39,604 nt of DNA from a virus. Made by a program: the position numbers and the translations under genes. The stretch is taken from IMG/VR virus record IMGVR_UViG_3300049597_000143, positions 1 to 39,604 of that record. One strand, 5' to 3'. The notes under the pieces are model-generated. The model ran no database searches, had not been told where the DNA came from, and saw only the letters and a program-made list of their open reading frames with translations. Below are positions 11,378 to 39,604 of this stretch, piece after piece (the first letter of the stretch is position 1; each line of letters opens with the position of its first letter).

Positions 11378-11811
11378 TGGCGGGCGGGAAGTACATATTT
11401 CACATGGGAACGCAAGACCCAACGGTGGCGCAAAGACGAGTCGTGCGGGCTATTGCTGACGATAGCTTTACCAGAACGGTTCCTGACGATTTTGGTTGCC
11501 TTCCGTGCCCGCAAACTTGGCGTCCCGACGCCAAGACGGCAATTGCTTTGCGCGCCAAGTATGTTTCCCCGCACGTAGACGATTGGGTAGGGATTGGAAG
11601 CCCTCCGTCTCGTTATGTGGCTCTGTTTTGGGTGGTGGAAATGCCGAGGTTTGAGCGGCTTACGTTACAAGTCGGAACCGAAGTTTGCCAAATGAGCCTT
11701 GGTGACTTTGTTGTGTTCAATGACACGGTTATGCATAGCGTGTTTGCTGACAAGTTTTGGCGAGGATGCGCGTATCAGGCTCGCTTGACACGAAGTGCGC
11801 GAGGTAGTTGA
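11374..11811 (+). CDS. Possible 2OG-Fe(II) oxygenase-like protein
   Basis: A 145-aa protein. HVDD (H67, D69), a beta-rich core, then H121 in VFNDTVMHSV and R130 nine residues later fit the HxD...H...R facial triad and 2-oxoglutarate site of small 2OG-Fe(II) oxygenases. The segment LGDFVVFNDTVMHSV resembles the second sheet of that fold. If correct, it could hydroxylate a base, nucleotide or protein. The match is by motif only. An ATG at 11377 would remove one residue. The gene is visibly more AT rich than its neighbours (many TTT, TTG and GTT codons), hinting at recent acquisition. Confidence 0.5.
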   Translation: MMAGGKYIFHMGTQDPTVAQRRVVRAIADDSFTRTVPDDFGCLPCPQTWRPDAKTAIALRAKYVSPHVDDWVGIGSPPSRYVALFWVVEMPRFERLTLQVGTEVCQMSLGDFVVFNDTVMHSVFADKFWRGCAYQARLTRSARGS

Positions 11812-12164
11812 TGGACGCGCAACGGCTGACGGACATCCTCGACAACTGGGCGCGCTGGCAGCGACGGCCGAACATCAACATTGGCTTTCCGCCAAGGAGC
11901 CTAGTGTTTGAGAGCGGAGGGGCGGTAGCAGTCGGCGCAGGTAGCAGCTACGACATCCCGCAGTCGGACGCTTACGCAGACGTGGACGACGCCGAGGCAC
12001 GCAGCGTGCAGGCGGTTGTGGACGATCTACCGGGCCGGGAGCGGGATAGCGTCTATAACGTGGTGCTCGGCACTAGGCGGCCGCTCGGCGAGCCGCTAGA
12101 AGTCGTCTACGTGCGTGCGCGGGCGCTGCTCATCGTGCGGCTGCATCGGCGCGGGATCGGCTAG
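11811..12164 (+). CDS. Possible Q-like late antiterminator
   Basis: A 117-aa protein starting at ATG 11811 (TGATG coupling; a TTG at 11808 is also possible). DILDNWARWQRRP near the N-terminus and VQAVVDDLPGRERDSVYNVV followed by a C-terminal helix (YVRARALLIVRLHRRG) resemble the phage antiterminator Q family with a sigma-region-4-like end. The place also fits: last part of the rightward early operon, shortly before a structured leader and terminator ahead of the late genes. Weak at sequence level, supported mainly by context. Confidence 0.45.
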   Translation: MDAQRLTDILDNWARWQRRPNINIGFPPRSLVFESGGAVAVGAGSSYDIPQSDAYADVDDAEARSVQAVVDDLPGRERDSVYNVVLGTRRPLGEPLEVVYVRARALLIVRLHRRGIG

Positions 12165-12181: not shown

Positions 12182-12526
12182 ATGGCAAAAAAAGGAAAGT
12201 ACGCAAAGTTTGCAGGTTGGGAAAACGAAGGCTTTTGCTTAGAAGATGAGGCTCTTGAAGTATTGCTTGATTGCAAGGATTACCGGGACGTAGCCAAAAC
12301 GGCTCTTAGGGTATACAGCGCAATGCTTCCGCCCGAAGCAGGCGAGGCAGAAGAAGATTCAGCGTGCCATGAGTTGTTTAAGGCCATTGCTGCCGCTGCT
12401 CATATCGCTGCGTGCGGCAAAATTGACGCGGTTCTTGGCGGCGGGGTTGATTCGTACGACGCCATTGAGTTTCACGAATCGGGGCAGGCCGACAAGGCGC
12501 TTGCAGCGTTGACGCCCAAAACATGA
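12182..12526 (+). CDS. Hypothetical protein (114 aa)
   Basis: Has one of the clearest ribosome binding sites in the region (AGGAGAGAGAG directly before the ATG at 12182). The product begins MAKKGKYAKFAGWENEGFCL and continues with acidic helices (ALEVLLDCKDYRDVAKTALR) and a Cys/His-containing middle (DSACHELFKAIAAAAHIAAC). No family recognised. Base use is more AT rich than the flanks. The stop overlaps the next start (ATGA). Confidence 0.65.
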   Translation: MAKKGKYAKFAGWENEGFCLEDEALEVLLDCKDYRDVAKTALRVYSAMLPPEAGEAEEDSACHELFKAIAAAAHIAACGKIDAVLGGGVDSYDAIEFHESGQADKALAALTPKT

Positions 12527-12804
12527 GCACAGCGGCAATCGTGGCAAACAATTCGGCGCAGCAAGCAGCGGCACGGCGGCGCCGAGAAGAACATCAGCGG
12601 GAAGCGTGCGCGCAGTTGATGGTCGGCTACCAGCACGAAAGCGCAACGGCGGCAGAGAAGCGGCAATACGCCGAGTGTGTGGCGCTTACAGTGCCGCCGG
12701 AACCGTTGACAACTCCGCCATTCCGCCCGGACCAAAGCAGCGTCGCGCTGGTGATTGTTTGCGCGGCAGTGGTGGCATTCGGGTTGTGGCGGCTTATTCG
12801 CTAG
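12523..12804 (+). CDS. Small membrane protein with C-terminal TM helix (93 aa)
   Basis: Residues 1-70 are polar, with a basic helix (QQAAARRRREEHQREACAQL). Residues about 74-92 (VALVIVCAAVVAFGLWRLI) form one transmembrane segment at the very C-terminus, as in tail-anchored proteins. It is the last gene before the non-coding 12805-13143 region. Function unknown; a lysis or superinfection role is possible but unsupported. Confidence 0.62.
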   Translation: MSTAAIVANNSAQQAAARRRREEHQREACAQLMVGYQHESATAAEKRQYAECVALTVPPEPLTTPPFRPDQSSVALVIVCAAVVAFGLWRLIR

Positions 12805-12814
12805 GCCGCCGCGC

Positions 12815-12836
12815 CTATAACCGCCGCAGGTTATAG
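12815..12836 (+). promoter_or_regulatory. 8-bp stem hairpin after the early operon
   Basis: CTATAACC pairs perfectly with GGTTATAG across a six-base loop (GCCGCA). There is no T run after it, so it is not a standard intrinsic terminator. It could be an operator, a processing site or a barrier to transcript decay. Confidence 0.5.
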
Positions 12837-12908
12837 ACCGCACACAGGCGCGCGACGAGATGATACGCTTCGTTCTGACGGGGGAATTGCCTCCGCAAGT
12901 TTTAACAT

Positions 12909-13026
12909 CGGCACGGGTTGGCTGAGTGGTTTAAGGCTAACGTCTGGGGCACCGGGCGTTATGCGGCACCTAGGACTACCCGGGAGTTTGTCCGCAACGC
13001 ACGTTAAAATCGTGCACCCGCCGCCG
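12909..13026 (+). ncRNA. tRNA-like structured RNA, non-canonical
   Basis: The segment starts like a tRNA-Ser: TGGCTGAGTGGTTTAAGGC (12919-12937) fits a D arm (GCT/GGC stem, GG in the loop). A T-arm-like hairpin, GCACG-TTAAAAT-CGTGC (12999-13015), is followed by ACCCG, which pairs with CGGGT (12914-12918) as an acceptor-like helix. CGGC (12909-12912) can also pair with GCCG (13023-13026). Between the arms are a hairpin AACGT...GCGTT (12939-12960) and a long arm TGCGG...CCGCA (12962-12996). It is not a normal tRNA: the anticodon-like loop is too long, the T loop lacks the invariant C, the first acceptor pairs mismatch and there is no CCA. A terminator follows. Confidence 0.5.
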
Positions 13027-13049
13027 ATGTTTCCTGCTTCCCTCCTCGT

Positions 13050-13063
13050 CACGGGTAACCGTG
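13050..13063 (+). other. Hairpin with GNRA-type loop
   Basis: CACGG-GTAA-CCGTG forms a perfect 5-bp stem closed by a GTAA loop (GNRA class in RNA), between the tRNA-like segment and the terminator. It is probably part of the same transcript. Confidence 0.45.
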
Positions 13064-13066
13064 TTG

Positions 13067-13093
13067 ACCGCCCCTAGTGGGCGGTTTTCTTTT
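13067..13093 (+). terminator. Intrinsic terminator before terS
   Basis: ACCGCCC pairs with GGGCGGT across the loop CTAGT, followed by TTTCTTTT. It ends the early transcript and/or the tRNA-like RNA. Late transcription from upstream would need antitermination to pass it. Confidence 0.85.
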
Positions 13094-13143
13094 GTGCTTA
13101 CGCTGAACAATCCTGCGGGAACTCAGCAAGGTTGAACTTAACC

Positions 13144-13431
13144 ATGGCGAACCAACACGGCGGCGCTCGGCCAGGATCGGGCAGAAAACCCGGTAGCGTC
13201 ACGCAAAAGACGCGCGAGATTGCTGAACGCGCGATCCAAGAAGGGTTGACGCCGCTCGAATACATGCTGGCCGTTCTGCGCGACGAGGTGAACGACACCG
13301 CTACGCGCATGGAAGCGGCCAAAAGCGCGGCGCCGTACCTGCACCCGAGGCTGAATGCCATCACGGTGGCAGGCGACGACGAGGCCCCGCTGCGACACGT
13401 TTTCCAGTGGGAATCGAAGTCCGGATCGTAA
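13144..13431 (+). CDS. terS: Terminase small subunit
   Basis: A 95-aa protein beginning MANQHGGARPGSGRKPGSVT, the basic, Gly-rich N-terminus seen in many phage small terminase/packaging proteins, followed by helices (REIAERAIQEGLTPLEYMLA) and PYLHPRLNAI. It would recognise phage DNA and present it to the large subunit encoded next. ATG 13144 is preferred over TTG 13132. It overlaps the terL start by 25 nt, which supports the pairing. Confidence 0.8.
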   Translation: MANQHGGARPGSGRKPGSVTQKTREIAERAIQEGLTPLEYMLAVLRDEVNDTATRMEAAKSAAPYLHPRLNAITVAGDDEAPLRHVFQWESKSGS

Positions 13432-14672
13432 TTCCGTACGCGCCTCGTGCGGCCTTCAAGCCGTTCCATGCGCGGACGGAGCGATGGGCCGTCATGGTCT
13501 GCCATCGGCGGGCTGGCAAGACGGTTTCCTGCATTAACGACTTGCTGCGCTCCGCACTGACGACTGAGCGCGACGATTGGCGCGGTGCGTACATCGCTCC
13601 GTACTACGGGCAGGCCAAGGACGTCGCTTGGGGCTATCTCAAGCGGTATGCGGGCGTTGTACCGGGCGTTGAGTTTTCCGAGGTGGAGCTCCGCGCCGAC
13701 TTCCCCAACGGCTCGCGTATCCGGCTCTACGGGGCTGACAACGCGGATGTGCGGCTGCGCGGCATCTACCTTGATGACGTGGTGTTGGACGAGTACGCGG
13801 ACTTCGCACCGTCTATCTACGGCGAGGTAATCCGTCCGCTGCTGGCTGACAGACAAGGCCGCGCGGTGTTCATCGGTACGCCGAAGGGGCACAACGGCTT
13901 CTATCGCGTGTGGGCTGACGCAGAGAGCAAGGCGGACTGGTTCCGTCTGATGCTGCGGGCTAGCGAGACGGGCATCGTGGCCGAGGACGAGCTGATGGCG
14001 GCTGCGTCGCAGATGACGCCCGATCAGTACGCGCAGGAATTTGAGTGCAGCTTTGAAGCGGCCATCCAAGGCGCGTACTACGCCAAGGACTTGCTTGCCG
14101 CAGAGAAGGACGGGCGCGTCGGTGATGTGCCGGTCGATCCGGTGCTGCCGGTGCATACGTCGTGGGACTTGGGCGTAGCGGACAGCACGGCCATCGTCTT
14201 TTGGCAGGCGCTGCGCGGCGGCACGGTTCGCATAGTTGACGCCTACGAAGCGAGCGGGCACGGCCTGGACCACTACGTCCGGGTGCTGAATGAGCGCGGG
14301 TACACGTACGGCGATCACTGGGCGCCGCATGACATCCAAGTACGCGAATTAGGATCCGGGCGCTCTCGGCTAGAGACGGCGGCAAGTCTCGGCATCCGGT
14401 TCAAGGTCACGCCGAATCTACCAGTGCAGGACGGCATCAACGCTGCACGGATGCTGCTGCCGCGCTGCTGGTTCAACAAGCGCCGCGTGTTGCCGCTGCT
14501 GGAAGCGCTCAAGCAATACCGCGAGAAGGTGGACGACAAGCGCCAAGTGTCGCTTGGTCCGCTGCACGACTGGACATCGCACTTTGCAGACGCATTCCGC
14601 TACATGGCGGTAGCTGCAAAAGAGCAAACGCCGAAGCGTAAATCGGCCGATCAAATTCACTGGCTTGCATAA
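13407..14672 (+). CDS. terL: Terminase large subunit
   Basis: A 421-aa packaging motor. The ATPase part has Walker A CHRRAGKT (residues 32-39), Walker B VVLDE (125-129) and the coupling-motif-like FIGTPKG. The C-terminal RNase H-fold nuclease shows SWDLGVADST for the first metal Asp and HFADAFRYMAVA near the end. It cuts concatemers and pumps DNA through the portal. The start is GTG 13407, inside terS. The stop directly abuts the portal ATG. P22-like neighbours suggest headful cutting, which is inference. Confidence 0.93.
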   Translation: MGIEVRIVIPYAPRAAFKPFHARTERWAVMVCHRRAGKTVSCINDLLRSALTTERDDWRGAYIAPYYGQAKDVAWGYLKRYAGVVPGVEFSEVELRADFPNGSRIRLYGADNADVRLRGIYLDDVVLDEYADFAPSIYGEVIRPLLADRQGRAVFIGTPKGHNGFYRVWADAESKADWFRLMLRASETGIVAEDELMAAASQMTPDQYAQEFECSFEAAIQGAYYAKDLLAAEKDGRVGDVPVDPVLPVHTSWDLGVADSTAIVFWQALRGGTVRIVDAYEASGHGLDHYVRVLNERGYTYGDHWAPHDIQVRELGSGRSRLETAASLGIRFKVTPNLPVQDGINAARMLLPRCWFNKRRVLPLLEALKQYREKVDDKRQVSLGPLHDWTSHFADAFRYMAVAAKEQTPKRKSADQIHWLA

Positions 14673-39214: not shown

Positions 39215-39507
39215 CACAACCCCCAATTGTCCGCCACCGGGACGCAGAAAATCTCAGCGCCCTCTGGCATGTCGACGTCAGCGATTGGGCGCAGATCCGC
39301 CTTGGCCGTCTCAACCATTTTCGCGAATCCGATGAACTCCCACTTGAAAACATGCAGCGCACGGCTGATGCGGATGCGTCCGTTCTCTCTCGTGACATCG
39401 CCTGCAAAAATCCAACCGCGATCCACCACGACTACCGCGCGGGTGCCGGCGGGCTTGACCGAAACAGGAACGTATTCGATGCCATTGATCGTGATCTTGT
39501 CGCTCAT
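39214..39507 (-). CDS. Hypothetical protein (97 aa)
   Basis: ATG 39507-39505 follows a GGGAGG ribosome binding site. An extension to 39552 is not favoured. The product MSDKITINGIEYVPVSVKPA has strands and a WIFAGDVTRENGRIRISRAL segment, ending PVADNWGL. This looks like a small beta protein that recurs in phages. Its 5' part is duplicated at the left edge by the terminal redundancy. On the closed genome it follows the 107-343 gene. Confidence 0.72.
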   Translation of the reverse strand: MSDKITINGIEYVPVSVKPAGTRAVVVVDRGWIFAGDVTRENGRIRISRALHVFKWEFIGFAKMVETAKADLRPIADVDMPEGAEIFCVPVADNWGL

Positions 39508-39604
39508 GGTGACCTCCCGAGTCGTTGGGTTAATCGTCATTGCTCTGCTCATTCGCCCCGAGGGCGGCGTCGATAAGTTTGATCAGTCGCTCAGACGCAT
39601 ACTC
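39424..39604. repeat. Right copy of 181-bp terminal redundancy
   Basis: Matches 1-181 except A at 39551 versus C at 128. Confidence 0.95.
39530..39604 (-). CDS. Truncated copy of the 107-343 coiled-coil gene
   Basis: The 3' end (24 codons plus stop) of the 107-343 gene, repeated by the terminal redundancy and cut at the right edge. The single base difference changes a Lys to Asn near the C-terminus relative to the left copy. Not a separate gene. Confidence 0.85.
   Translation of the reverse strand, partial: EYASERLIKLIDAALGANEQSNDD

Follow-up and report, generated by a model that had tools for sequence, protein, structure and literature searches.

The late leader and the genes around it

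The window (the whole stretch of DNA analysed here) is a virus record of 39.6 kb, 39,604 nucleotides in full, in which positions 1–200 and 39405–39604 overlap nearly perfectly, differing by one mismatch or more. The overlapping ends of the record suggest a circular or circularly permuted genome, and the phage encodes a P22-like portal protein. On the plus strand, a gene for a Q-like (late antiterminator-like) protein (11808–12164, the coding sequence probably starting at the ATG at 11811) is followed by two small ORFs, by a non-coding interval (12805–13143) and then by the two terminase genes with which the late genes open: terS, for the small subunit (13144–13431; PHROG 641, E 1.1e-6), and terL, for the large subunit (13407–14672; PF03237, E 4.7e-9). 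The Q-like protein has 46 related loci in viral contigs. Searches of the window protein against Pfam and PHROG gave no family match. One distant relative, in MW202481, is annotated 'phage antitermination protein Q', and a second, from Methylophilales phage Venkman, is annotated 'antitermination-like protein'; the Venkman protein itself matches PF06530 at E 0.0086, below the cut-off. By profile, the product of 11808–12164 can be assigned only weakly, as a putative Q-like protein.

The interval between this gene and the late genes holds a tRNA-like element (12904–13031) within a leader that ends in an intrinsic terminator. Ahead of the leader lies an inverted repeat, CTATAACC-GCCGCA-GGTTATAG (12815–12836), the arms of which are kept in the related contig L085 while the loop is changed; it is a possible regulator site. 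A promoter scan of the window returned no consensus promoter. By position, TGATAC (12861–12866) is a weak candidate for the −10 element of a late promoter, and it aligns near TGTAAT/GATAAT of related leaders. Downstream of it is leader hairpin 1, CGGGGGAATTGCCTCCG (12879–12895), with a C-rich loop segment that is common to relatives (22 leaders aligned). Beyond the tRNA-like element come a C/U-rich tract, TTCCCTCCTCG (13038–13048), a GNRA hairpin, CACGG-GTAA-CCGTG (13050–13063), and the terminator, GACCGCCCCTAGTGGGCGGTT with a T-rich tail (13066–13094, hairpin 13066–13086); all lie on the plus strand, and terminator hairpins occupy the corresponding position in related leaders. The C/U-rich tract reads UCUCCUCCUC in relatives. 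This conserved tract resembles the anti-Shine-Dalgarno core and could pair with Shine-Dalgarno sequences. The initial annotation had put a tRNA-like RNA downstream of a possible Q-like gene and near a GNRA hairpin and a strong terminator, and this layout holds, the order being Q-like gene, leader element, terminator and terS.

When 22 relatives that have no such element were aligned with the three carriers, from which the element had been excised, the −10-like site, hairpin 1, the C/U-rich tract and the terminator were common features. The element, approximately 125 nt long, is inserted after hairpin 1 and before the C/U-rich tract. In L085, the leader and terminator are 91–97% identical to those of the window and flank a diverged tRNA-like core. 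The window and a second related contig, L167, are identical at 12182–12863 and then diverge into different terS/terL late modules; identity up to the leader and divergence after it point to a recombination or exchange point at the leader.

The distal part of the leader recalls RF02278, a toxic small RNA family of Betaproteobacteria. The stretch L167:4227–4276, comprising the C/U-rich tract and terminator, scores 32.8 bits against a cut-off of 50 bits, and L178:3441–3486 scores 24.4 bits, also below the cut-off; the window gave no match to this model. The phage leaders and the family share a C/U-rich tract of the UGUCUCCUCC type followed by a terminator, but the family has no tRNA-like domain and the leaders score under its cut-off. 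RF02278 RNAs have been seen by Northern blot in Burkholderia cenocepacia, where their function is unknown (PMC4603805). A sub-threshold match to RF02423, a Burkholderia small RNA, was found at L180:3506–3660.

Fold of the element and its conservation

The minimum-energy fold of 12904–13031 is a closed, class-II, four-helix cloverleaf of −57.4 kcal/mol (z −2.78; 4 of 200 shuffles were equally good), and the extent of the element is supported by this fold, by covariation and by covariance models. An outer 9-bp stem that pairs 12904–12912 with 13023–13031 makes it slightly longer than the 12909–13026 first noted. The 5′ strand of this extended acceptor stem, AACATCGGC, is separated by a bulged A from the 5′ strand of the inner acceptor, CGGGT (12914–12918), which pairs with ACCCG (13016–13020) and is supported by compensatory changes in L167 and L085 as well as by the fold. 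On the 3′ side (13016–13031), ACCCG is followed by a CC internal loop and by the outer strand GCCGATGTT, with no CCA end, so that the acceptor in the window consists of 5 bp, an internal loop and 9 bp. A U8 G9 linker leads from the inner acceptor to the D arm, GCTGAGTGGTTTAAGGC (12921–12937), which is laid out as GCT-GAGTGGTTTAA-GGC with G18 and G19 present; the D arm of a genuine tRNA-Ser in contig L083 matches it except for one base. The position of the anticodon arm is occupied by a 9-bp helix with a GGCA tetraloop, AACGTCTGG-GGCA-CCGGGCGTT (12939–12960). The variable arm (12962–12996) is made of two stacked stems, the outer TGCGG/CCGCA and the inner CCTAGG/CCCGGG with an ACTA loop, and the T arm (12999–13015) is GCACG-TTAAAAT-CGTGC, with a loop of 7 nt. 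This T loop is without C56, a loss that weakens the D/T elbow of the window element. The parts as first described, namely a D-arm signature, a 5-bp/7-nt T-arm-like hairpin, an acceptor-like helix joining the two, an oversized anticodon arm, an extended variable arm and the lack of the T-loop C and of CCA, are all found at these positions, and folding of the region, which had been proposed as a check, returned the closed cloverleaf.

To gauge chance occurrence, a descriptor combining T arm, acceptor, U8 and D arm was run on real and shuffled windows. It gave one match in the real window against 0.05 per Markov-shuffled window, and its stricter D-arm form gave none in 300 shuffled windows; the descriptor was composed after the element had been seen, so these figures are yardsticks rather than clean p-values, and comparison with homologues is the stronger test.

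Two further members carry a tRNA-like element at the equivalent position: L085, found through its terS (92% identical), and L167, found through its Q-like protein. The cloverleaf folds in both, as in the window (z −2.20 in L085 and −2.98 in L167). All three have an acceptor of 5 or 6 bp, an internal loop and a further stem of 5–9 bp, and none encodes a CCA end; the outer stem is present in L167 and L085 with a sequence unlike that of the window. In L167 the acceptor is AGGGT/ACCCT, the D arm is that of the window plus one inserted base, and the variable arm is again in two parts with an identical ACTA loop. The helix at its anticodon position has 9 bp and a GTTA loop, ACCGTCCGG-GTTA-CTGGGCGGT, with every pair kept. 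The element of L085 has a D stem GAT/GGC with one mismatch, a simpler variable arm and an anticodon-position helix that folds as 7 bp with a 5-nt loop and contains two mismatches. The T arm of both is GTCCG-TTCAAAT-CGGAC.

Covariation was assessed in these three members only. In a MAFFT alignment, 93.5% of pair cells were standard, against 33–45% when the partners were slid, and eight pairs had changed on both sides compared with a shuffled mean of 3.4 (0 of 500 shuffles as high), counts that rest on few independent changes given the three members. The comparison of the window with L167, made in a hand-set structural register, covered 38 pairs, of which 24 were unchanged, four had changed on one side and ten on both, at a divergence of 0.32 substitutions per stem site. 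No pair is broken in L167, and the window has a single A-C mismatch. When 24 substitutions were placed at random, a mean of 16.2 pairs was broken and the minimum was 5 (200,000 trials). The helices were defined on the same sequences on which the pairs were then counted, a bias that favours pairing, yet the observed gap is far larger. That L167 and L085 keep the fold with matching base changes indicates that the shape is under selection and did not arise by chance. The initial annotation had called for covarying pairs in the D, T and acceptor helices: compensatory change is seen in the T and acceptor helices, whereas the D helix shows almost no variation and carries one mismatch, in L085.

The distribution of the element is narrow in the sets searched. 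Contig L082, which shares 98% identity with the window across 12.8 kb, is unchanged across 361 bases around the element. Among 80 loci related by terL, the element occurred only in a near-identical contig; a further 80 loci related to the terL of L167 gave no additional member beside terL, except for the unlike sequence in L284, and genome contigs with an alignment to the Q-like protein included no carrier. The L284 sequence (L284:1529–1669) combines a canonical D arm and T arm with a 14-bp acceptor that has no break, and is closely followed by a terminator and terminase genes; its fold is no better than that of shuffles (z −1.18). Two other candidates were rejected as members. L164 was a chance pattern match, and L009:2490–2660, where fragments resembling a D arm and a T arm precede a terS homologue, had no model match; from their sequence these fragments are possibly decayed tRNA genes. 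With blastn, the element region of the window had no match among phage records, and the L167 element gave chance and tRNA-Thr pieces only.

Relation to class-II tRNA

Standard detectors place the element near, and outside, the tRNA family. ARAGORN called no tRNA in the window, and Rfam at gathering thresholds reported no family there. A focused Rfam search aligned the RF00005 tRNA model over its full length (1–71 of 71) to 12912–13023, at 20.4 bits against the cut-off of 29 bits; two of the detectors that the initial annotation had recommended thus fail to recognise a tRNA at their own thresholds. The focused search gave no tRNA match in L167 or L085. Relaxed ARAGORN models of the element were rejected since they had low scores and were mutually inconsistent.

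We also built a covariance model, R1, from the three phage RNAs alone (window, L085 and L167). R1 detects genuine tRNA genes, tRNA-Ser/Leu among them, at 40–59 bits, and its tRNA matches that had not been fetched by a tRNA pattern include L336:2246–2343 (46.1 bits) and L330:5067–5171 (40.2 bits). Applied to two further sets of related loci, 1.1 Mb in total, it found nothing at E ≤ 1. The anticodon position of L085 carries CTGGAAT, as does the anticodon loop of tRNA-Ser(GGA). Since R1 and RF00005 detect across from one group to the other, and given the CTGGAAT of L085, descent of the element from a class-II (Ser/Leu) tRNA is well supported at the level of sequence and profile. A search of genome contigs with an acceptor/D-arm pattern returned seven stretches outside proteobacterial phages; most of these match R1 as tRNA genes, and so no donor tRNA was identified.

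With class-II tRNAs (tRNA-Ser/Leu, RF00005) the element shares the D arm, the T arm with its 7-nt loop, the long variable arm, the U8/G9 linker and the four-way junction, a set of class-II features that profiles recognise. It differs from them in its 9-bp tetraloop helix, its extended and closed acceptor, its lack of an anticodon loop and of CCA, and its Rfam score below the cut-off. In no member is there a 7-nt anticodon loop on a 5-bp stem, nor a 7-bp acceptor with a free 3′ NCCA, and with neither an anticodon loop nor a free CCA end, membership of the functional tRNAs is unsupported. Functional non-canonical tRNAs do exist (PMC7609411). The allo-tRNAs and tRNA-Sec-like tRNAs resemble the element in having a lengthened acceptor, variable arm and anticodon stem (PMC7609411); they nevertheless retain an anticodon and are charged, in contrast to the phage element, which has no anticodon loop or CCA.

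Other odd tRNA-like sequences were encountered in phage contigs. An exact T-arm scan found L305:3993–4104 (minus strand), in an unrelated phage contig, which is ARAGORN-negative, has a tetraloop at the anticodon position and no CCA, folds unaided into a full cloverleaf and scores 49.2 bits with R1. L303:6729–6847 and L310:11922–12070 are likewise odd tRNA-like sequences with an exact T arm and no ARAGORN call, the former lying upstream of apparent terminase genes. In a 300-kb contig, L320:10687–10807 is tRNA-Met-like with an insert of about 34 nt in the anticodon loop, and is uncalled by ARAGORN without the intron option.

Proposed role in the leader and alternatives

The account that we consider probable is that the element is a structured RNA domain of tRNA origin, without a decoding function, that forms part of a terminated late leader. 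A class-II tRNA-like sequence would have been inserted between hairpin 1 and the C/U-rich tract. Its anticodon loop would then have been replaced by the 9-bp tetraloop helix and its CCA end by the long closed stem, the D/T elbow and the cloverleaf being retained under selection. We infer that a late promoter after the Q-like gene would give a leader RNA of about 200 nt, which would stop at the terminator (13066–13094) as a small RNA, and that the Q-like protein would let polymerase pass this terminator into terS and the other late genes. The retained elbow suggests that the RNA is recognised by host enzymes that bind tRNA, or that it is protected: the elbow and the stacked acceptor/T helix may be a ligand of RNase P, of nucleases of the PNPase type or of enzymes that modify tRNA, or may shield the transcript, in which case the terminated leader would be processed or would accumulate. 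Taken by itself, this step of host-enzyme recognition or stabilization is tentative, and we would give it somewhat less than an even chance.

Parts of this proposal have counterparts in known systems. A comparison with lambda 6S RNA had been offered from the outset, and it fits in position, from the Q-like gene to the terminator before terS. Like lambda 6S and StxS, the leader follows a Q-like gene, precedes the late genes and is terminator-ended (PMC7873438), its transcription in the window phage being a prediction; unlike the phage element, those leaders are not described as having a tRNA-like domain (PMC7873438). In Stx phages, StxS is a processed regulatory RNA that arises from the terminated late leader (PMC7873438). 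YrlA (RF02553), a tRNA mimic without a decoding function, serves DusA and TruB as a substrate and also binds PNPase (PMC8394870). As in the phage element, its 5′ and 3′ ends form a long stem that bears a tRNA-like D/T domain (PMC8394870); the phage element, however, is a full cloverleaf with a variable arm. A search of the window and of four related records with the RF02553 model gave nothing at E ≤ 10.

The alternatives rank in likelihood as a trans-acting decoy, then a pseudogene slightly above a put-like RNA, and last an unusual working tRNA. As a decoy, the accumulated leader would titrate one of the host factors that handle tRNA, for instance seryl-tRNA synthetase, a tRNA-modifying enzyme or a defence nuclease directed against tRNA. 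SerRS recognises the tRNA elbow and the long variable arm, and it is these parts that are kept while the decoding and charging ends are lost. YrlA provides a precedent for a non-decoding mimic in contact with PNPase and with enzymes that modify tRNA (PMC8394870), and StxS shows that a terminated late leader is able to act in trans (PMC7873438). For anticodon nucleases, however, the element offers no anticodon to cut. We regard the decoy as the best placed of the alternatives, though unlikely.

If the element were instead a decaying pseudo-tRNA, a captured tRNA-Ser gene would have lost its function and be drifting. Many phages hold real tRNA genes, the CCA and anticodon loop are missing, C56 has been lost in the window, and the Ser(GGA)-like CTGGAAT of L085 makes tRNA ancestry plausible. 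The initial annotation had suggested a decayed tRNA-Ser, and the class-II ancestry in that suggestion stands. Simple decay does not agree with the ten compensatory changes, nor with the finding that none of the 38 pairs is broken in L167 at its level of divergence, which argue that the element is not a freely decaying pseudogene; moreover, the relatives have the same departures from tRNA, in the 9-bp tetraloop helix and the extended acceptor. We consider this explanation improbable.

HK022 put RNA is a folded part of the nascent transcript where a phage operon begins, and the element would be of this type if the folded RNA modified polymerase so that it passed the following terminator. The likeness lies in a structured RNA at an operon start, and nothing specific favours put. 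Terminators do follow the element immediately, where the late genes begin, but about 20 related leaders share this terminator arrangement and lack the insert, so the element is dispensable for the basic circuit. The phage also has a Q-like gene, and no put-like sequence was identified; a put-type antiterminator seems a shade more improbable than the pseudogene. Last, an unusual but functional tRNA, for example intron-bearing or specially charged, could be entertained from the class-II cloverleaf, the D and T arms and the existence of non-canonical functional tRNAs (PMC7609411), but it is hardly credible with a 9-bp helix that leaves a 4-nt loop, a 7-nt anticodon loop absent from all members, an acceptor closed by a further stem without CCA, and rejection by ARAGORN and Rfam.

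Beyond this locus, the tRNA-derived late-leader domain favoured here may belong to a class of phage-encoded, non-decoding tRNA mimics in late leaders, in which the D/T elbow would exploit host tRNA-binding proteins, charging and decoding would be avoided, and the RNA would be swapped together with late modules; we consider such a class less likely than not. Our observations suggest that non-decoding tRNA-like RNAs are commoner in phages than tRNA finders show; the finders discard such sequences, so counts of these RNAs are probably too low. Provided that the leader is expressed, phages would have a tRNA mimicry comparable in principle to that of YrlA and sited at the early–late switch, which would raise the question of the host factor for tRNA handling that they engage at that point.
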